This document shows positions 1-58,073 of a stretch of 64,000 nt of DNA, piece by piece. Made by a program: the position numbers and the translations under genes. The number at the start of each line of letters is the position of its first letter. Within the stretch, counting starts at the first letter, position 1. The DNA comes from Sneathiella limimaris (lineage in GTDB: Bacteria; Pseudomonadota; Alphaproteobacteria; Sneathiellales; Sneathiellaceae), in contig NZ_JABBYJ010000001.1 in NCBI RefSeq assembly GCF_012932565.1, forward strand, positions 248,001 through 312,000, given 5' to 3'. The notes under the pieces are model-generated. The model did no database searches. It was not told where the DNA came from and saw only the letters and a list, made by a program, of their open reading frames with translations.

Positions 1-61
1 AGTAAGAAATCCCTGTTACATCAAGAGTAAGCCCTGCTTTTTTACAGACTATGACTGGGAC

Positions 62-646
62 ATGAAGAGAAAACTGAAAAAGCGAATCATTAGGAACGTG
101 GCTATCTGCGGCGTGCTTAGCATGACCCTTACCGGGTGTGTGGAGACCATTTTTGCTGGCCTGACAATTGCTGACCTTTTAACAGCTGGATCAATCACTT
201 CTTCTATTCTCACAGGCAAAGGCTTGGGTGAACATGCTTTGGATGCCGTAACAGGTCAGGATTGCCGAATTCTTGAAGCAATCTTTCGCAAAAACCGAGC
301 AGTTTGCGAGCCACGGGATTCGGTTGCAACTAACGACGATTTCAAAGGATTAGTTGGACTTCTAGACACACCTGCAGGGCAGGATATTCAGCTTGCCGAT
401 ATCCCAATGGGTGAAGATCAATATACTGCGGTCAATCTAAAGGCACGCGCCATTAGTCCCAAATTATTGAAAACTCTGAAAATTAACTCCGGGGTTACCA
501 TTGGAAATCAGCAATTGGTTGCTGATAAGCGGGAAATGCAGTTGCTCAAAGCCACCGCCAAATTCACAAAACCGGTAACAGCAGATATTTCTCCGGTTGA
601 AGCACCTGAGCTTCGCAGGCGGCTTGTCTCAGGCGGATTGTTTTAA
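62..646 (+). CDS. Putative outer-membrane or periplasmic lipoprotein, unknown function
   Basis: This 194-residue protein starts with a basic stretch, then a hydrophobic segment ending in a lipobox (LTGC, Cys at about residue 26), so it should be exported and lipid-anchored. A hydrophobic glycine/threonine-rich stretch follows the cysteine. The rest has no domain that I recognise. The start ATG follows a GGGAC sequence. The gene lies 53 bases before zapE on the same strand, so the two may be co-transcribed. The export signal is seen directly. The function is unknown. Confidence 0.75.
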   Translation: MKRKLKKRIIRNVAICGVLSMTLTGCVETIFAGLTIADLLTAGSITSSILTGKGLGEHALDAVTGQDCRILEAIFRKNRAVCEPRDSVATNDDFKGLVGLLDTPAGQDIQLADIPMGEDQYTAVNLKARAISPKLLKTLKINSGVTIGNQQLVADKREMQLLKATAKFTKPVTADISPVEAPELRRRLVSGGLF

Positions 647-2543: not shown

Positions 2544-3284
2544 TTAAATCAGCCCCCTCCAATAATAGGCTATCAACCCAGCATATTCCTTTAAGCCATG
2601 CTTCCAGTAAAAGAAGCCTTCAAAACCGGGAACGAAGTCAGTCCATGTCAAATCTGAGTCTTTTATCCCGACGATAACGGCATTTACAGTAACGCCCTGC
2701 TTTTCGAGCACGGCCCGTGTTCGATACGCATGAATGCCTGTTGTGAACACAATAGCGGAGTTCAATTTGTGTGATTGCATCAAGGTTGCAATATTTGCAG
2801 CATGGTCTGCAGTTCCCTCAGCGCCAAATGTCAGCAAAACTTCTTCAGATCCATCAAGCTGCTCCATCAAGAAAGGAAGTTCGCCTTGTCCTTGCGGATC
2901 TGTTCCCGAGACAAGTAGGGGAGCTTGGATTTGTTTGGCCAATTTTTCTGCGCGCTTAACCCTAGAAAAAGAGCCCATTGATGGCAGCGTCGCTCCAGTT
3001 TCCCTATCACGTTGCAATCCAGACGCAAGAACAACAACGCTGTCACTATCCCCAAAGCGAAATTGTGCTATGGCATCCTGATAAGTTACACCAACATCAA
3101 TAGGCGCAATTAACAGTTTTCCCGTAACTGGAAAGCTCAAGAAGATAAGAATGATACTATTTGCGAGAAAATACCGCTTGCGCCGCGTCATCGCACTTAA
3201 GATCAATGTGACCGGCATAAAGATCAATATGACCCCAGGCAATGACATCCCGTCTATTAATTTCACTAACGCATAGTCCAGCAT
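2544..3284 (-). CDS. DUF218 / YdcF-SanA-ElyC family membrane protein
   Basis: This 246-residue protein has two hydrophobic N-terminal segments (about residues 13-30 and 38-55) followed by a soluble DUF218 domain. Visible features include SVVVLASGLQRDRETG near residue 81, a serine-containing strand (LLVSGT), and a later TTGIHAYRTRA block where the family usually has a conserved histidine/arginine pair. The homologues SanA and ElyC affect envelope integrity and peptidoglycan precursor supply in enterics. The exact role here is unknown. It lies downstream of the sdh terminator on the same strand and so probably has its own promoter. Confidence 0.8.
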   Translation of the reverse strand: MLDYALVKLIDGMSLPGVILIFMPVTLILSAMTRRKRYFLANSIILIFLSFPVTGKLLIAPIDVGVTYQDAIAQFRFGDSDSVVVLASGLQRDRETGATLPSMGSFSRVKRAEKLAKQIQAPLLVSGTDPQGQGELPFLMEQLDGSEEVLLTFGAEGTADHAANIATLMQSHKLNSAIVFTTGIHAYRTRAVLEKQGVTVNAVIVGIKDSDLTWTDFVPGFEGFFYWKHGLKEYAGLIAYYWRGLI

Positions 3285-3343
3285 TTATCTCTTACCACTC
3301 CTACAGATTTGCACCAGAAATTAAATCAAGCGGATCCTTTCAA

Positions 3344-3372
3344 AGAAAAAAGGCCGCCAAAAGGCAGCCTTT
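3344..3372 (-). terminator. Intrinsic terminator of the sdh operon
   Basis: Read on the minus strand, a 7-bp stem (GGCTGCC / GGCGGCC with one G-U wobble) and a TTTT loop are followed by a run of six T. It begins about 27 bases after the sdhB stop codon, where the end of sdhCDAB is expected. Confidence 0.85.
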
Positions 3373-3398
3373 TCTTTTTTTTAAATTGAACGCCCCTA

Positions 3399-4178
3399 TT
3401 AACGGCGTTCAACCATCATTTTCTTAATCTCCGCAATCGCCTTCGCAGGGTTCAAGCCTTTCGGACACGTATTTGCGCAGTTCATAATTGTATGACAGCG
3501 ATAAAGACGGAATGGATCCTCTAGATTATCCAGTCGCTCACCTGTAAATTCATCACGGCTATCAGCGAGCCAGCGATATGCCTGCAGCAAAATGGCTGGT
3601 CCTAGGAAGCGGTCTGAATTCCACCAATAACTTGGGCATGAGGTCGAACAACAAGCACACAGAATGCATTCGTACAAACCATCCAGTTTTTCACGATCTT
3701 CTTTCGATTGAAGACGTTCCCGATCTGGTGGAGGTGGGGTCTGGGTCTGCATCCAAGGCTTGATGGATGCATACTGAGCATAGAAGTTTGTCAGATCCGG
3801 AACCAAATCCTTCACAACAGGCTGATGTGGAAGTGGATAAATATTGATGTCACCATCCACTTCATCCATGCCTTTTGTACAAGCGAGTGTGTTCGTCCCA
3901 TTAATATTCATGGCACAGGAGCCACAAATACCTTCGCGGCAGGACCGCCGAAATGTCAGAGTCGGATCAATTTCATTCTTGATCTTGATTAGACCATCCA
4001 AAATCATTGGGCCGCAAGTATCTAGGTCTACATAATATGTATCGATACGTGGGTTTTCGGAATCATCAGGAGACCAACGATAGATATTGAAGGTCTTGAC
4101 GTTCTTTGCCCCATCAGGTTTCGGGTGGGTTCTCCCGGTGCCAACCTTTGAGTTCTTAGGCAATGCCAGTTCTACCAT
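3399..4178 (-). CDS. sdhB: Succinate dehydrogenase iron-sulfur subunit
   Basis: SdhB passes electrons from the flavoprotein SdhA to ubiquinone in respiratory complex II, on the cytoplasmic face of the inner membrane. The 259-residue protein shows all three cluster-binding regions: the 2Fe-2S cysteines C80, C85, C88 and C100, then C171, C174, C177 and C181, then C228, C234 and C238. Together the last two groups hold the 4Fe-4S and 3Fe-4S centres. It is the last gene of sdhCDAB, 18 bases after sdhA, and is followed by a strong terminator. Confidence 0.98.
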
Positions 4179-4196
4179 GTCTTACTTCCCTAGCTC

Positions 4197-5990
4197 TTAG
4201 TAAACCCGGGCTTTGGGTTTAATATAATCGATCTCATCAGTCAGTGTGTAAGTGTGGACCGGACGATAATCAATCCGAACACCTTCTGCATCACTGTGAT
4301 AAGTCAATGTATGTTTCATCCAGTTTTCATCGTCCCGATCCGGGAAGTCCTCACGGGCATGCGCACCGCGGCTTTCTTTCCGGTTCTCAGCAGCTGTCAT
4401 GGAGACAACGGCCTGACGAATGAGGTTATCCAGCTCCAGTGTTTCCACAAGGTCAGAGTTCCAAACCAGTGAACGGTCAGTAGTCTTGATATCGGCCATC
4501 TGTTTTTCAACTTCACCGATCTTCTGAACACCTTCCTGCAGGCTTTCACCTGTCCGGAACACTGCACAGTCGTCTTGCATAACCCGTTGCATCTTGTCAC
4601 GGATCTGGGCAGTAGACTGACCACCGCTTGCATTACGGAATCCATCAAGACGCGATAGTGCAGCGTCACATGCATCGCCTGCTAGAGGCGCATGTTTCGT
4701 ACCTGGTTTAATTACATCTTTTGCCCGAAGCGCTGCTGCACGCCCGAACACCACGAGATCAATTAGTGAGTTGGAACCAAGGCGGTTTGCGCCATGAACA
4801 GACACACAAGCCGCTTCACCAACAGCCATCAGGCCAGGAACAACCGCATCTGGGTTATCCCCTTTCAGATCCACAACCTCACCATGATAGTTGGTTGGAA
4901 TACCGCCCATGTTGTAGTGAACGGTTGGGATAACCGGAATAGGCTCCTTTGTCACATCAACGCCAGCAAAAATGCGGGCACTTTCAGAAATACCAGGTAA
5001 CCGCTCTTCAATCATGGCTGAATCTAGATGATCCAGATGCAGGAAGATATGATCGTTCCGATCGCCGACACCGCGGCCTTCGCGAATTTCCATTGTCATG
5101 GAGCGGCTAACAACGTCACGGCTGGCAAGGTCTTTCGCACTTGGAGCATACCGCTCCATGAAGCGCTCACCTTCACCGTTTACAAGGTAACCACCCTCAC
5201 CACGTACACCTTCTGTGATCAGGCAACCAGCCCCGTAAATTCCAGTTGGATGGAACTGAGTGAATTCCATATCCTGAAGGGGCAAACCGGCCCGGAGAAC
5301 CATTCCACCGCCGTCACCTGTACAGGTATGTGCAGATGTACATGAGAAATATGCCCGGCCAAAACCGCCTGTTGCCAGCACAACCATGTGGGAGCGGAAC
5401 AGGTGCAATGTTCCATCTTCCAAACACAGACACAGAACACCTTTACAGGCGCCGTCTTTGTCCATGATCAGATCAAGAGCAAAATACTCAATGTAGAAAT
5501 CGGTCTCATACTTCAAAGACTGACTGTACAAGGTATGCAACATAGCATGCCCAGTCCGGTCAGCCGCGGCACAAGTCCGCTGAGCAGCAGGACCTTCACC
5601 AAACTGGGTGGTCATTCCACCAAACGCGCGCTGATAAATCTTGCCTTCTTCAGTCCGGGAGAATGGCATACCAAACTGCTCTAGTTCCAGAACCGCTTGC
5701 GGAGCTTCCCGGCACATATATTCGATGGCATCCTGATCGCCCAGCCAGTCAGACCCCTTAACAGTGTCATACATGTGCCACTGCCAGTTATCTTCACCCA
5801 TGTTGCCAAGCGATGCGGAGATTCCGCCTTGCGCTGCAACGGTGTGTGAACGAGTTGGAAATACCTTGGTAACAGCCGCTGTTTTCAGACCAGCTTGTGC
5901 CATGCCCATGGTTGCACGAAGGCCAGCACCGCCAGCACCGACAACAACCACGTCATATTCATGTTCGATAATTGGATAAGCTTCAGACAT
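4197..5990 (-). CDS. sdhA: Succinate dehydrogenase flavoprotein subunit
   Basis: This is the 597-residue catalytic subunit of complex II, which oxidises succinate to fumarate using covalently bound FAD. The dinucleotide-binding GAGGAG lies at residues 18-23. The SHTVAAQGG block contains H49, the expected covalent FAD attachment site. The substrate-site HPTGIYGAG and the [18 protein letters not shown] segment are intact. The length is normal. It sits between sdhD and sdhB with very short gaps, so it is in one transcript with them. Confidence 0.98.
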
Positions 5991-5995
5991 CTACA

Positions 5996-6376
5996 TTATC
6001 CCCCGAAGGCCAGCTTGAGAACGGCCAGCGCTGCGGCGAGACCCACAATTGAGCAAATAAAAGTATTCAGCAGCAAACAAACAATTTTTGTGCTTTCTGT
6101 ATGAATGTAATCTTCAATCACGACCTGAAGACCAAGCTTCAGATGGTAGAAAGTCGTTCCAATCAAAAGAAGCATCACAATTGTTGCAAACGGTGAGCTG
6201 AGAGTTTCGCGAACCTGCATATAATCTGCACCGGTTAGGCAGATCGCATAGGCAAGAGCGATAACAAAAAGAGGAATCAAAGCGACAGCTGTCACTTTCT
6301 GATGCCACCAATGGGTGGTTCCATCCTTAGCAGATCCCAAGCCACGGACATTTTTAAGAGGTGTTTTCATGCTCAT
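5996..6376 (-). CDS. sdhD: Succinate dehydrogenase membrane anchor subunit
   Basis: This 126-residue inner-membrane protein has three hydrophobic segments (about residues 28-48, 62-80 and 96-120). It anchors the SdhAB dimer and helps form the ubiquinone site and the haem b site. The FYHLKLGLQVVIEDY block contains H78, the likely haem ligand, and the conserved Asp-Tyr pair (89-90) near the quinone site. It starts 2 bases after sdhC ends and finishes 5 bases before sdhA. Confidence 0.95.
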   Translation of the reverse strand: MSMKTPLKNVRGLGSAKDGTTHWWHQKVTAVALIPLFVIALAYAICLTGADYMQVRETLSSPFATIVMLLLIGTTFYHLKLGLQVVIEDYIHTESTKIVCLLLNTFICSIVGLAAALAVLKLAFGG

Positions 6377-6378
6377 GA

Positions 6379-6768
6379 TTACGCTCCCATGCCGTAGGCG
6401 ATAGCCCAGGTCAACAGCGTCAGAACGACAGAGCAGATGATGGCAGCCATACCTGTTTTGCGCATCGTTGGAAGCTCAAAACCCTTACCCGCATCCCAGA
6501 ACAGGTGACGAATACCATTACACAAATGGTAAAACAGCGCCCAAGTAAAACCAAACATCACCAAGCGACCAAACCAAGACGTCAGGAACGCACTTACGGT
6601 ATCAAAGGCTTCAGGGCCAGTTGCGGCGGCAATCAACCACCAGGCTAAAAGCAGGGTACCAACACCAAGCGCAACTCCCGTGATGCGATGGGTGATGGAG
6701 GTTACCATCGTGATCTGCGGTTTATAAATTTGCAGATGCGGCGATAGGGGTCTTTCTATATTCGCCAT
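6379..6768 (-). CDS. sdhC: Succinate dehydrogenase cytochrome b556 subunit
   Basis: This 129-residue cytochrome b subunit of complex II has the family opening RPLSPHLQIYKPQ and the SITHRITGVAL motif near residue 24, whose serine and arginine line the quinone pocket. The FYHLCNGIRHLFWD block contains H81, the expected haem b ligand. Three membrane segments are visible. It is the first gene of the operon. The 110 bases upstream, between it and the mesaconyl-CoA hydratase gene, should hold the sdh promoter, although I could not pick out a clear -35/-10 pair. Confidence 0.96.
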   Translation of the reverse strand: MANIERPLSPHLQIYKPQITMVTSITHRITGVALGVGTLLLAWWLIAAATGPEAFDTVSAFLTSWFGRLVMFGFTWALFYHLCNGIRHLFWDAGKGFELPTMRKTGMAAIICSVVLTLLTWAIAYGMGA

Positions 6769-6878
6769 GGATATCTCTCTAGCTAAGCTATCTATGAGTT
6801 ACTCGATCTTCTTTTTTGGCACGAATTGTAGGATCAGAAAAGGGTTAGTCAACAAAACCTGCACTAATGAATGCCTTT

Positions 6879-7949
6879 TTATACCTCAATTGTGGCTTTT
6901 GGCAATATCACCCAACAATCAAGATCCAAAACAACGGATGGATCTCTCTTCCCATCCTCAGCTTTATCAGGAAAATCGGCACATGTTTGATTTTTCACAC
7001 CTAAGCTACGAATCCGAAGCGCACCTAGATCAGTTCTTCCTGGCACGTCAGCTTTGTCCAGCACCTCACTCCAAGCATAAATGGTATCACCGGCAAAGGT
7101 TGGTGCTGTATGAGATCCCCCATTAATCGCTGCAACGAAAAGGGCATTTCCAAGTCCATTAAACGACAGACTTCTTACGAGACTGATGATATGACCGCCA
7201 TAAATCAAGCGACGACCCATTCGGTCATCTTTCATCATATGTTGGTTGAAATGAACTTTGGCCGTGTTTTGATACAATCGCGTAGCCAGCATATGCTCAG
7301 CTTCTTCGATAGTCATACCATCCACGTGATCAATTTTCTCGCCAACCTCATAATCTTCAAACAAGTGAACAGAACCAGCCAGCGCCGTGTCATAGCGTGA
7401 TACATCAAATTGTGATGGCACAAAGAATGCGGCAGGATCTACAGTTTCTGGCAACTCAGGCAATACGGTTTCTGGTGCAGCCGCTGATGGATCCTTTTTG
7501 CGGACCATCACCCAGCGGACATAATCCAGAACAACCTCGCCCATTTGATTCACACCTGTTGAGCGAACGTAAACCACGCCTGTTTTGCCATTGGAATTTT
7601 CTTTCAGACCAATTACTTCAGAAGTGGTTTGAACGCTATCCCCTGGATAAACCGGAGCAATAAACTTCACATCAGCATATCCCAGATTGGCAACCGCGTT
7701 TAACGAGATATCTGGAACCGTCTTGCCAAATACAATATGAAAAACAAGAAGATCATCGACTGGCGCTGCCTGCAGACCACAGTCCAATGCAAAACTATCA
7801 GCAGACTGCAGCGCAAACCGACCCCCATAAAGGGCTGTGTACAGAGAAACATCCCCTTCAGTGATTGTTCGCGGCGTTGCGTGGTAGAGGACCTGACCTA
7901 ATTTAAAATCTTCGAAAAAATTCCCAGGATTTGTTTTACTTGAGCCCAT
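6879..7949 (-). CDS. mch: Mesaconyl-CoA hydratase (MaoC/hot-dog family)
   Basis: This 356-residue protein has two hot-dog/MaoC-like halves and resembles Rhodobacter mesaconyl-CoA hydratase (beta-methylmalyl-CoA dehydratase) along its whole length. Shared blocks include KTNPGNFFEDFKLGQ, FHIVFGKTVPDISLNAVANL, VLDYVRWVMVRK, EKIDHVDGMT and HMLATRLYQNTAKVHFN. The enzyme interconverts mesaconyl-C1-CoA and beta-methylmalyl-CoA in the ethylmalonyl-CoA pathway, the acetate assimilation route used by alphaproteobacteria without a glyoxylate shunt. It is 12 bases downstream of the malyl-CoA lyase/thioesterase-like gene, so the two form one unit. The family match is from remembered sequence, not from a search. 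Confidence 0.9.
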   Translation of the reverse strand: MGSSKTNPGNFFEDFKLGQVLYHATPRTITEGDVSLYTALYGGRFALQSADSFALDCGLQAAPVDDLLVFHIVFGKTVPDISLNAVANLGYADVKFIAPVYPGDSVQTTSEVIGLKENSNGKTGVVYVRSTGVNQMGEVVLDYVRWVMVRKKDPSAAAPETVLPELPETVDPAAFFVPSQFDVSRYDTALAGSVHLFEDYEVGEKIDHVDGMTIEEAEHMLATRLYQNTAKVHFNQHMMKDDRMGRRLIYGGHIISLVRSLSFNGLGNALFVAAINGGSHTAPTFAGDTIYAWSEVLDKADVPGRTDLGALRIRSLGVKNQTCADFPDKAEDGKRDPSVVLDLDCWVILPKATIEV

Positions 7950-7961
7950 TAACTCTCTCCC

Positions 7962-8837
7962 TCAAGACGCCATTTCGTCAATCGCATCTGCCAAAGCAAC
8001 TTTCGCCTTGGCAATTTCAACATGCAGGTTCTCAACAAGCTTACCATCCACAAGAACAACACCTTTACCTTCTTTTTCTGCCTGTTCAAACGCTTCAATC
8101 ACACGGCGAGAATAGACAACCTCATCAGCGGACGGCGCAAAAACCTCATTCGCGGCATCGAGCTGTCTTGGATGTATCAATGTTTTGCCGTCGAAACCAA
8201 GCTCTAGACCCTGCACACAAGATGCGCGGTAACCGTCATCATCACCAAGGTCAAGATAAACGCCGTCTAAAACTGTCAATCCATAGGCCCGCCCTGCGAG
8301 AAGGCATAATCCCAAGGACGTTATAACCGGAAGACGCATCGCTGTGTGCTGAGCTTGGAGTTCTTTAACAAGATCAGATGTTCCCATAACAAAACAATCG
8401 ATCCGCTTGGACGCAGAAGCAATTTCTTCAGCCTTCAGAATTCCAAGCGGCGTCTCCATCATGCACCAAATAGAAGTAGTATCAGGCGCACCATTTTCAA
8501 CCATAAGCTTTTCAAGCTCATGAATTTGAGCGGCACTTTCTACTTTTGGCAGCAATATTGCGTCAGGCGCTGCCTTTGAAGCCGCGATGATATCGTCCCG
8601 GCCCCAAGGCGTATCAAGACCATTGACGCGAATAATGATTTCCCGTTTGCCATAATCGCCACTTGCGGCGTTTGCACAAACGATCTCCCGAGCCTCTGCT
8701 TTTGCGCCAGGCGCTACAGCATCCTCCAAATCCAGGATCAATCCATCAGCGGCAAGTCCTTTGGCTTTTTCCTGCGCCCGGGCATTGGAGCCAGGCATAT
8801 ACAATACAGAACGACGAGGTCTGAGGGATTTGGGCAT
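7962..8837 (-). CDS. (3S)-malyl-CoA thioesterase / CitE-like malyl-CoA lyase family
   Basis: This 291-residue protein is an HpcH/HpaI-CitE family TIM barrel. It has the start RRSVLYMPGSNARAQEKA, the metal/substrate acidic motif LDLEDAV (residues 35-41), the substrate-binding arginine in IIIRVNGLDT (R70), and metal ligands in MMETPLG (E128) and MGTSDLVKEL (D155). The overall sequence and length (under 300 residues) resemble Rhodobacter Mcl2, the (3S)-malyl-CoA thioesterase, more than the longer Mcl1 lyase. Either function fits the ethylmalonyl-CoA pathway, and the adjacent mch supports that pathway. The choice between thioesterase and lyase is inference. Confidence 0.85.
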   Translation of the reverse strand: MPKSLRPRRSVLYMPGSNARAQEKAKGLAADGLILDLEDAVAPGAKAEAREIVCANAASGDYGKREIIIRVNGLDTPWGRDDIIAASKAAPDAILLPKVESAAQIHELEKLMVENGAPDTTSIWCMMETPLGILKAEEIASASKRIDCFVMGTSDLVKELQAQHTAMRLPVITSLGLCLLAGRAYGLTVLDGVYLDLGDDDGYRASCVQGLELGFDGKTLIHPRQLDAANEVFAPSADEVVYSRRVIEAFEQAEKEGKGVVLVDGKLVENLHVEIAKAKVALADAIDEMAS

Positions 8838-8961
8838 GTTTTTCTCCGCTAAACTGACTATTGTCTTTATTTTTTGGCTGCATCATAAGCATTTTTTGCT
8901 GCAACGCAACAAAGTTGCGCTTAACCAACAAGAAAAGTAATTTTCTCCCTGAAGTAGACCA

Positions 8962-53007: not shown

Positions 53008-55803
53008 TTAGGCTGTCCGCACTGTTTTCAGGAAGTTGGCGACTTCCTCATTCAATTCTGATGATCTAGCCGCCAGATTTGAAGACTGATCCAGAATATG
53101 GCTCGCTGCGGAACCAGTCTCTTCTGCAGACCGGGTTACATTTGAGATATTGGTTGTTACCTCATTTGTGCCCGTCGCGGCATCACCTGCGCTTCTGGAG
53201 ATTTCCTCCGTTGAAGCAGTTTGTTCCTCAATCGCTGCAGCAATAGCCGCAGAAATTTCGTCCATCTGCCCGATGATGTTGGAAATTCCCTGAATAGCAT
53301 CAGCAGATTCCTGAGTAGCACCCTGGATACCGCTAATCTGGTTTGAAATCTCTTCAGTCGCCCTAGCCGTCTGGTTCGCCAAATTCTTAACCTCTGCGGC
53401 AACGACAGCAAAGCCTTTACCAGCATCACCAGCACGGGCTGCCTCAATCGTCGCATTGAGTGCCAACAGGTTTGTCTGTTCGGCAATATCGGTAATTAAT
53501 TCAACGACTTCACCAATTTTTTGCGATGACTCAACGAGGAACTTGATCTGTTGATGGGTGTCATCTGCCTGTCTCACGGCATCACCAGCAACCCGGGTCG
53601 ACTGAGCAACCTGCTTGCTGATTTCGCGGATCGAGCTAGACATTTCATCAGCAGCTGAAGCCACTGTTTTCACATTGGAAGACGCTTGTTCAGCTGATCC
53701 AAGAGCACTGGAAGTCTGGGTGTTGGTTTCTTCCACGACCTTCAGCATCTGTTCTGAGGAGGAGTGCATATCTCGAGCCGCTGCATCAACAGCGTTTGCA
53801 ATACTTCCAACAGATTTTTCAAACTCATTTGCCAATTTAAGCAAGTTTGAACGATTTTCTTCATCTCGCCGCTGACGTTCAGCTTCGGCCTCTTCCTCAC
53901 GGCGTTTCTCTTCCTCTGCACGCTGAGCTGCACGCTCTTGACGATCTTTCTCAGCCTTTTCAGCCTCTTCCCGCAGGCGTTCGGTCTCAAGCGCATTATC
54001 CTTGAACACGCCCATGGCTTTCGCCATTTCACCAATTTCATCCTTGGTTTCTGAAGAAGGCACTTCCGCTTCTAAGTTACCATTTGCCAGTTCATTCATG
54101 GCAGTTGTCATTTTGCGGATGGGGTTTGCAATACCATTCCCAATCAAGACCGCTAGCAATAGCCCAATACCAATTGCACCCAGAACACATAGCGCAATAA
54201 TGATATAGGTATTAACCACAGTACTCTGTGCAGCGTCAGACTTTTCTGCCATCTGATTTTCCAGTACGGAGCGGAATTCGCCCATGACAGCCTGAAATTC
54301 CTGGAAATATTTCTCACCGCGGGCTTCACCTACCAAGTCCGCCATATCATCCATAGTCTTGGCGTCACCAATTCCACGGCGCAGCTCAATCATTCCCTCA
54401 ACAACATCTTTTTGCCAGCTATCAATGATCTTCGATGCTTTTGTTAGACGCTCTGACTGTTCTGCTTCCTGAAACATGACACGCGCATTTAGATCAGCAA
54501 TCGCTTTTTTGAATAATTTGCTGCCCTCTGTATACGGCGTCAGGAAACTATCTTGACCGGAGAGAAGATATCCGCGCATACCCGTTTCCATATCGACAGC
54601 AGATGTCAAAATATTTAATGCATCTTCAATCACTCTAGAGCTGGCAGAAACTTTTTCTTCATTCATGATCATGGTAGCCAAACCGGCTTCCACTTTTTGT
54701 TCCGCCGCCAAAGCATCCGCTTTCTTGAAATGAACCCGTTCTGTTTCAGCTTGGGAAATCGATCCAAGAGCCGTATTAAAAGCTTCTAGCTCTTTAGCAC
54801 CGGCATTGCTGCCCAGAAAACCGTTCAATTGCAACAAATTACCAGTGCCGTTGCTAACCGCTTTTCGAAGCTCAATTGCCGGTTTAACAGCAACTTCAAT
54901 CCACTGATAAATGGCTTCATCTGCCTTCGTCACGCTCTCGGCATGCTTTTCATCAGCTTCAACCTCTAAACCTAGAACTTCAAGCTCAGCAAACATCAGA
55001 TCTTCTGAATATTGATATGTTTCTAGAAAATCCTCGTTGCCAGCGATCAGATAACCCCTGAGAGCTGATTGCATTTCGGTAATTAGGTTCTTCACGCGCG
55101 TTACAGCCGTCAGGATATTTTGGGTATATTCAACTGCAGCCGCAGTCTCCTTAACCACTTTGAACTGCTCACGAACAGCATCCTTAGCTACCGAAAATTC
55201 CTCTTTCCTTGTTTCAAGCCGGGACCGCTCAAAAGCAATAAAAGCATCGATCTCTTTTCTGAAGTTCTCAAAGAAGACTTTGCCCTTGGCTTCGCCGACA
55301 AGTTTAGCCATGTCGTTCATGGTTGGTGCATCACCGATTTGGCGGCGGAGCTCAATACTGGGCTCAGTAACATCTTTCTGCCAGCTTTTCAGGATCGATT
55401 CTGTTTTCGTTAAACGATCTAACTGCGCTTGATTGTCCTGCCCAATTTCTGCCCGCAGCTCTTCAATCAAGGCATAAGTTTCTTCTTCACCGGATTTGTA
55501 TGGCTTCAAGAAGCTTTCCTGTCCGGCCAGCAAATACCCGCGCATACCTGTTTCCATATGGAGCGCCGATGTCTCAATAGCTGCCGCTTTTGAAGACAAT
55601 TCTCGCGTCTGGTTCAGCGTTACACTTGTCTCAACCAAACCGTTAACATTGAGACCAGCCACCATGCCCAGAATAATCAGCAGGACCAGAGGCGCGCAGG
55701 TTCCGATTAGGATCTTGGTTTTTGTTTTAAGGTTTCTAAATTTGGTTATAAAACCAGCAGCCGACTTAAGATTTCCGGCATTGAGCGTTTTGCTTGCTCC
55801 CAT
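53008..55803 (-). CDS. Methyl-accepting chemotaxis protein with three CHASE3-like repeats
   Basis: This 931-residue membrane chemoreceptor has an N-terminal helix (about 31-53) and a periplasmic sensor containing three CHASE3-like repeats. Their marker motifs ([39 protein letters not shown]) start at residues 83, 244 and 405, exactly 161 residues apart. A second helix (about 532-555), a HAMP domain and a charged coiled-coil linker (about 610-660) lead to the MA signalling domain with the hairpin tip [21 protein letters not shown]. There is no NWETF-type tail. The triple array is described further in the findings. Confidence 0.93.
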
Positions 55804-56960: not shown

Positions 56961-57512
56961 ATGGGAGATCAAAATACAAAAATCGAAGCTGCAATGGAAA
57001 GGCCAATTAACTGTTCCAATCAGCTATTAAATAGATTTGCCAGTATTGTTCTCGCCAGTGGAGAAGTTCCTAGGGCTAACCTTCAATCTGGCATACCGAA
57101 AGCTGAAATGCTGTTCTTCATGCTAGCAGATGGAGCTGTTGTCGGGGCCAGTGCTGTTCGATATCAGGAGAAAAATTATCATCGCCACCTCTTTGAGCGG
57201 GCAGGTGTCCCCGAAATGTATAATCCTTACAGCGTGGAAGTCTGCTGGCTAAGTATTTTACCTGAATATAGAAATCTCGGCGGCTGGAATTTGATGCATA
57301 AGCTCCGCAAGAGCTACTTGGGAAACCGCCCTCACCATGCGATTACCCGTGTGGAGAATAAAAAGGTTTCTGATCTTTCACCCTACGGCTATGAAAGGGC
57401 AGGCAAGCCCTTCTACCCTGCGACAGACAAAAACCTGATCCAGTTGGCCGTTGCCAACCATGATCCAATATACGATCCCTCCAAAAGGCTGATTTACGCA
57501 AAACCACAATAA
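56961..57512 (+). CDS. GNAT-like protein, tandem copy A
   Basis: This 183-residue protein is clearly a paralogue of its downstream neighbour. It has a GNAT-like CoA-binding region (VEVCWLSILPEYRNLGGWN, where the usual RxxGxG reads RNLGGW) and an unusual conserved stretch AGVPEMYNPYS upstream of it. The N-terminal part (MERPINCSNQLLNRFASIVL) is shared with the second copy. The C-terminal end contains NHDPIYDPSKRL. The substrate is unknown, and I do not know a named family. Confidence 0.7.
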   Translation: MGDQNTKIEAAMERPINCSNQLLNRFASIVLASGEVPRANLQSGIPKAEMLFFMLADGAVVGASAVRYQEKNYHRHLFERAGVPEMYNPYSVEVCWLSILPEYRNLGGWNLMHKLRKSYLGNRPHHAITRVENKKVSDLSPYGYERAGKPFYPATDKNLIQLAVANHDPIYDPSKRLIYAKPQ

Positions 57513-57524
57513 GAGAAAGCACCC

Positions 57525-58073
57525 ATGCCAGAAGTTGAACCTGAACTGAAAGTCATAATGCGCCGGCCGATAGACTGCCCACCAGAAATGCACAAACGCT
57601 TTATCGAGATTGTCATGGAGGGTGGAGAAACCCTGTTGCCAAACCTGCAACGTGGAGTTCCCATGGCAAATATGCTGTTTTTTGGTCTTGTTGGTAGGGA
57701 AATAGCTGGCGTTTGCTGCGCCCGATATCAAAATGTGCACTATCACAAACATCTCTTTATTCAGGCTGGCGTTCCAGAAATGTATAATCCCTACAGCTTA
57801 GAGATTTGTTGGTTAAGTGTTCTTCCCAAATACCGCCGCAAAGGTATTTTTAAACAGTTTATCACCCAATGGGATGGTTATTTGAAAGATAGGCCCGCGC
57901 ACGCGATTACACGCGTTGCAAACGCACCTGTCGCAAATCCGGCTCGCTTTGGGCCCAATTATCATGAAGTTGGCGAGCCTTTCTATACAGACAACAGCGA
58001 CGATCTTATCCAACTGACCGTCACCAACCACGACCCCGTTTTCGAACCGAAAAAACGCCTTCGTTACTGCTAG
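57525..58073 (+). CDS. GNAT-like protein, tandem copy B
   Basis: This 182-residue paralogue of the preceding protein starts 12 bases after it. Its acetyl-CoA site motif reads LEICWLSVLPKYRRKGIFKQ. The stretches AGVPEMYNPYS and NHDPVFEPKKRLR match the first copy closely, with about half of all aligned residues identical by eye. The spacing suggests co-translation and perhaps a heterodimer. It is convergent with the dehydrogenase-like gene, 7 bases apart. Confidence 0.7.
   Translation: MPEVEPELKVIMRRPIDCPPEMHKRFIEIVMEGGETLLPNLQRGVPMANMLFFGLVGREIAGVCCARYQNVHYHKHLFIQAGVPEMYNPYSLEICWLSVLPKYRRKGIFKQFITQWDGYLKDRPAHAITRVANAPVANPARFGPNYHEVGEPFYTDNSDDLIQLTVTNHDPVFEPKKRLRYC

Follow-up and report, generated by a model that had tools for sequence, protein, structure and literature searches.

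Three tandem CHASE3 repeats in a Sneathiella chemoreceptor, predicted to fold as a three-storey sensor

Introduction

The sensor of the chemoreceptor McpZ has reportedly been published as a novel fold, in which three four-helix modules are concatenated, with a proposed origin in the Rhizobiaceae. To our knowledge, the sole solved case of a three-module chemoreceptor comes from the Rhizobiaceae. The periplasmic domain of PilJ consists of two PilJ domains (PMC6381276). According to the authors of GlnX, writing in 2022, no other case was known in which membrane-anchored 4HB domains are repeated in tandem within a single chain (PMC9769921). The sensors of TorS and LytS make contact with a binding protein (PMC6321045), and for CHASE3, a link to ionic strength has been described, with ion sensing reported for other CHASE3 kinases (PMC10950880). 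Here, we describe a chemoreceptor with three CHASE3 repeats, named R1, R2 and R3, which is encoded in a window of 64,000 nucleotides, the whole stretch analysed, from the 3.66 Mb genome of the marine alphaproteobacterium Sneathiella limimaris. A literature search covering few subscription journals yielded no description of a triple CHASE3 receptor.

Results

Domain organization of the receptor

The receptor gene lies on the minus strand (Table 1), which refines the original prediction, a reading of the sequence alone that had proposed a triple CHASE3 sensor on a chemoreceptor. The Pfam family CHASE3 (PF05227) matches the 931-residue protein in three separate stretches with an E-value of 1e-67 and 226.7 bits. 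When scored in the whole-genome search, each unit exceeds the curated gathering cut-off of 28 bits, so the profile recognises all three repeats and not a single one, and the proposed sensor stands. The marker motif M-x-x-x-M/L-R-G-Y-L recurs in the translation at exactly the claimed residues, 161 residues apart both times, and the expected tryptophans, one per repeat, are exactly placed and are the only three in the receptor. Local alignment likewise bears out R1 and R3 as the closest pair (score 301, against 158 for R1/R2 and 130 for R2/R3). As every pair exceeds 76, the top score of 300 shuffles of any pair, the likeness of the repeats is far above chance. As also described, R1 and R3 both contain the block ELRRxIGDAxTMxDMAxLVGEA; R2 lacks it.

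Hydrophobic stretches at residues ~31-53 and 532-554 bracket the repeats and are followed downstream by the HAMP and MCP signalling domains; with both PF00015 and PF00672 matched, the protein has the domain content of an MCP. The translation holds no hydrophobic segment between the repeats, and hence no separate TM pair for each bundle of the GlnX type. Lying between two TM helices, the CHASE3 array is probably extracytoplasmic.

Table 1 Features of the receptor gene and its product.
Feature	Position in the window	Strand	Basis
Whole gene, 931-aa membrane chemoreceptor, TM1-[CHASE3]x3-TM2-HAMP-MCPsignal	53008..55803	-	ORF and Pfam
TM1, residues ~31-53, continuous with R1 helix 1	55645..55713	-	Hydrophobic stretch in translation; predicted helix, sensor residues 6-72
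CHASE3 repeat R1, motif residue 83, Trp 141	55198..55617	-	109.8 bits, above cut-off
CHASE3 repeat R2 (diverged; predicted distal tip), motif residue 244, Trp 301	54733..55143	-	61.6 bits, above cut-off; 3va9 alignment
CHASE3 repeat R3, motif residue 405, Trp 463	54238..54660	-	98 bits, above cut-off
HAMP, residues 554-603	53995..54144	-	Pfam PF00672, 42.6 bits, E 7.7e-11
MCP signalling domain, residues 731-890	53134..53613	-	Pfam PF00015, 118.1 bits, E 4.8e-34
Predicted through-going helix, R1 helix 4 and R2 helix 1, residues 173-254, 82 aa	55042..55287	-	AlphaFold2 H152-233 of sensor, pLDDT ~90; indel-free junction
Predicted through-going helix, R2 helix 4 and R3 helix 1, residues 336-415, 80 aa	54559..54798	-	AlphaFold2 H315-394 of sensor; indel-free junction
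R3 helix 4 into TM2, residues 495-559; predicted partner of R1 h1-h3	54127..54321	-	AlphaFold2 H474-538; YvaQ alignment; covariation

A long, highly charged, helix-like stretch rich in E, R and K (53820-53995, approximately residues 603-660) is located between HAMP and the signalling domain, and it is kept in the Sneathiella orthologues. The receptor ends in KTVRTA, without an acidic tail and final aromatic residue. Acidic-aromatic tails are found in many triple receptors outside Sneathiella (L043, L045, L051, L060, L066 and L069-L073), where the last residue is aromatic (e.g. DTEFERY, DESWEEF) and the tail is similar to CheR-binding pentapeptides.

Predicted structure of the sensor

The structure of the S. 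limimaris sensor (residues 22-560) was predicted by AlphaFold2 with a 63-row alignment, which comprises 63 distinct triple CHASE3 sensors from several phyla. The model has a mean pLDDT of 85.5 and a pTM of 0.48, and because the latter is only 0.48, the relative placement of the stacked units, or storeys, is uncertain. No turn is present at either repeat junction; instead, helix 4 of each of the first two repeats runs into helix 1 of the next. A phmmer search of the PDB with the single sensor retrieved the solved CHASE3 structure 3va9 as a weak match only, and a profile of the 63 triple sensors retrieved it at E 6.6e-15. On the model, 3va9 aligns contiguously with R2 alone (127/127 residues, rmsd 1.9, Z 16.3). 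In the model of the YvaQ receptor (9a65_A), 202 residues of the TM1-bundle-TM2 part align (rmsd 3.6 angstrom) within the range 1..539 of the triple-sensor model, so that the start and the end of the sensor would together make up one proximal bundle. R2 is its own four-helix bundle in the model, and a swap of helix 4 is predicted between R1 and R3, as read from aligned ranges and not from coordinates. The top Foldseek match is McpZ (8f7n, E 4.8e-6), with a loose superposition (rmsd 16.5 to 20.6).

If every repeat formed its own upright bundle, the helices of ~80 residues would hit the membrane, a conflict that the model matches resolve. An R1 helix 4 that extends past the membrane end of R1 is impossible, as both TM helices lie in one membrane, and the swapped reading was therefore adopted. 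We consider it likely that the triplicated CHASE3 sensor folds as one upright three-storey tower, in which R1 and R3 exchange helix 4. The original prediction had envisaged a three-unit stack that alters the distance to the membrane, built of three similar domains and not of a single continuous bundle. The stack is favoured by the structure prediction, and no single featureless bundle is predicted; the repeats seen in the sequence do not coincide with the structural modules, as only R2 folds self-contained and R1 and R3 swap helix 4 according to both prediction and covariation.

As a control, we predicted the two-copy sensor of the relative L102 with AlphaFold2. This model contains a turn at the junction (194-199), and AlphaFold2 is thus not blind to such turns. 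3va9 aligns with the L102 model over 126/127 residues (rmsd 2.4 angstrom) in the range 45..348, and since this range spans both repeats, the second repeat would contribute the helix 4 of the bundle. TorS (261/273 residues, rmsd 4.7 angstrom) and the HBM of McpS (235/236, rmsd 4.6 angstrom) align with the same model, and two-copy relatives are predicted to form a TorS/HBM-like two-storey tower. A two-storey tower needs a top hairpin between its repeats and a three-storey tower does not, and the junction sequences agree. Gly or Pro occurs in the junction in 14/15 cases for two-copy arrays versus 61/128 for triple arrays; the spacing at two-copy junctions varies from 157 to 180. Among the 63 triple sequences, the junctions (172-218 and 336-380, sensor numbering) are free of indels, which occur at sensor residues 23-29, 100, 296-300 and 423. 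Contrary to the simple tower model, the central junction of the four-copy relative L050 has no clear hairpin.

Covariation between helices

The contact registers of h1-h4 and h3-h4 were fixed from R2, for which the swapped and the same-repeat model do not differ, and transferred to R1 and R3. Swapped pairs (R1 h1/h3 with R3 h4, and R3 h1/h3 with R1 h4) reach a z sum of 8.07, and no other register is as high, whereas same-repeat pairs reach 0.79, with 71.6% of registers equally high. When Sneathiella is left out, the sums are 7.09 for swapped and -1.27 for same-repeat pairs. The swapped pairs score higher in 40/40 subsamples and under all nine parameter settings, ranking in the top 1.6% in six of these; their weaker ranks in the other three (0.12-0.24) are due to the R2 control, for which a different h3 register was selected. 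The h2-h4 diagonal pairs show no clear preference, and block averages of mutual information were too noisy, leaving the register test as the one informative signal. This result is independent of the predicted model. Because the set is small (~43 effective sequences), it gives moderate support to the helix 4 swap.

These observations bear on a different layout, which was our first idea from the distances: each repeat would fold by itself, and the three upright CHASE3 bundles would stand next to one another on the membrane, with tight turns at its surface as connections, similar to GlnX without the central TM hairpin. The distance from helix 4 to the next helix 1 would leave ~4 residues for a turn, GlnX from Corynebacterium glutamicum has been modelled as two side-by-side bundles (PMC9769921), and such a layout permits any copy number, including the four copies of L050. 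We nevertheless regard it as unlikely, as it is disfavoured by the turn-free AlphaFold2 junctions, by the lack of junction indels across the 63 sequences and by covariation that speaks against same-repeat pairing of helix 4, and as the solved CHASE3 fold maps across both repeats in the two-copy model.

Divergence and spacing of the repeats

A tree of 113 repeats, built by a quick method, groups those of most lineages by position and not by organism, with exceptions in several Planctomycetes, Vibrio and Lentisphaerales rows. The first repeat of two-copy arrays falls with R1, and the second with R3. Judged by its sequence, the sensor goes back to a single CHASE3 four-helix bundle that was triplicated long ago. 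Every one of the 63 sequences has both the Arg and the Gly of the RGYL motif in each copy, and as this includes R2, the middle repeat is not decaying. The distance between the motif Arg residues is 160 from R1 to R2 in 59/63 sensors and 161 from R2 to R3 in 54/63. The commonest spacing in relatives is accordingly 160 then 161, which refines the even period of the original prediction; the S. limimaris receptor has 161/161 because its R1 carries one extra residue.

This pattern can be set against a tandem duplication without special function, in which the extra bundles serve as spacers and the receptor acts like one with a single CHASE3 domain. Such a reading would suit a fold that is already known, a proximal module that resembles an ordinary MCP sensor, and a gene found in only ~10/24 genus genomes. 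We consider it very improbable, as the repeats diverged long ago and group mostly by position across phyla, their spacing is almost fixed at 31-75% identity, and the motif Arg and Gly are invariant throughout.

The IGDAxTMxDMA block is found in R1 of 50/63 sensors and R3 of 47/63, and in R2 of 0/63. The R2 repeats of seven Sneathiella sensors share a stem of 2.62 changes per column, compared to 0.46 for R1 and 0.43 for R3. Both features could be taken to mean that one ligand is bound by R1 as well as by R3 and a second one by the diverged R2, with three separate sensors integrating two signals. We regard this as possible but rather doubtful: if R1 and R3 build two joint modules, as in the tower, mutual fit and not a shared ligand would explain their likeness.

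Distribution, output domains and copy number

The closest relatives are found within Sneathiella, with an orthologue at 75% identity; sensor identity between relatives and the S. limimaris receptor ranges from 31-72%. Full-length orthologues with three repeats occur in 8/24 genus genomes, and 2 further sensors are cut by contig ends. At the level of the class, 6/385 genomes yield full-length matches, 3 of the 6 being from Sneathiella. A search of a plasmid collection gave no match. Outside the genus, the array is rare yet phylogenetically broad: named carriers include Roseibium, Leisingera, Phaeobacter, Vibrio penaeicida, Desulfonema magnum, other Desulfobacterales, Planctomycetota and Lentisphaerales, several of these records being metagenome bins whose labels may be wrong.

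Among the 53 receptors scanned for output domains, 49 carry MCPsignal and 4 a histidine kinase, such as L014, which combines the triple CHASE3 sensor with HAMP-HisKA-HATPase. Two-copy relatives are represented by, e.g., L100-L102, L104-L108, L111-L113, L121 and L123. The four-copy chemoreceptor L050 (L050:3447-6728) has spacings of 160, 161 and 160; its fourth repeat resembles a recent copy of its third, and it has no junction that is a clear hairpin. In L074 (Leisingera sp. ANG-M1), a two-copy and a three-copy CHASE3 receptor are adjacent (~3223-5690 and 5929-8853), possibly a snapshot of copy-number change.

Genomic neighbourhood

The receptor gene is accompanied by genes for an ACT-domain protein, an AAA protein and an enoyl-CoA hydratase, neighbours that are mostly common to Sneathiella alone, and the genus orthologues share one neighbourhood wherever it is readable. 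The genes around the receptor give no hint of a ligand. In three genus genomes without the receptor, the hydratase gene lies in a different context, and no empty site was seen. Two adjoining paralogous genes (56961-57512 and 57525-58073) have no Pfam match above the cut-off, the product of the second being weakly GNAT acetyltransferase-like (E 0.0024); at the corresponding place in L035, their relatives are present as three copies in tandem. In the Sneathiella glossodoripedis relative (L006:939-1447), the ACT-domain gene beside the receptor seems frameshifted, with the frames joining at 1256.

Discussion

In the three-storey tower, the proximal storey would be formed by R1 h1-h3 together with R3 h4, which would bring TM1 and TM2 next to each other, the arrangement of an ordinary chemoreceptor. 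R1 h4 and R3 h1-h3 would make up the middle storey, and R2 alone would form the distal tip, a candidate reading head, linked to the middle storey by two helices of ~80 residues unbroken by turns. The site at which a signal is read may be the tip or a joint between storeys, and the signal may be a small ligand or, as in TorS and LytS, a loaded binding protein; the tip may accordingly contact a binding protein or, like other CHASE3 kinases, sense ions. We postulate that the signal travels as a shift of the long helices, which would reach the proximal bundle on the side of R3 helix 4/TM2, then HAMP and finally the kinase-controlling end. As R2, the predicted reading head, changes fastest in Sneathiella, its natural variants provide a set in which to look for ligands.

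A more general view, for and against which we find the case evenly balanced, is that tandem CHASE3 receptors grow by storeys, the outer repeats exchanging helix 4 with each duplication, to give one, two, three and perhaps four storeys, of which the two-copy form needs a top hairpin and the three-copy form does not. The arrays would then show, in a form that can still be read, how the folds of TorS, HBM and McpZ evolved, folds in which the repeats are no longer visible. This would provide a concrete route from one bundle to multi-storey sensors by plain duplication, and place the three-module chemoreceptor architecture in several phyla. It also advises caution, as sequence repeats in a receptor need not equal structural domains.

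Among described systems, 3va9 (CHASE3 of Rhodopseudomonas palustris HK9) has a fold which R2 shares and belongs to the family that all repeats match; 3va9 has one bundle, whereas the Sneathiella sensor has three repeats, two of them predicted to exchange helix 4. The McpZ sensor of Sinorhizobium meliloti (8f7n), the top structural match of the triple sensor, is shorter (364 residues), and three stacked modules of its type are predicted here, although at a pTM of 0.48 and an rmsd of 16.5 for this best match. 8f7n is absent at E<=10 from the search with the profile of 63 sensors, more distant homology being beyond the reach of the profile. Against the reported Rhizobiaceae origin of McpZ, the CHASE3 arrays occur in several phyla, and their sequence repeats are still visible. 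TorS (3o1h, 3o1j) and McpS HBM (2yfa, 2yfb) have the two-storey arrangement predicted for the two-copy CHASE3 relatives, but differ from the triple sensor in having two storeys and in belonging to other sequence families. PilJ (7zjr, 8wdf) likewise carries tandem 4HB-type domains in one chemoreceptor, but these are two domains of the PilJ family and match the two-copy model more loosely (246/268 residues, rmsd 7.8). The helical tandem module of GlnX also duplicates 4HB/CHASE3-like domains on one chain (PMC9769921); its two bundles stand side by side with their own anchors and four TM helices, whereas the Sneathiella receptor has two TM helices and a predicted stack.
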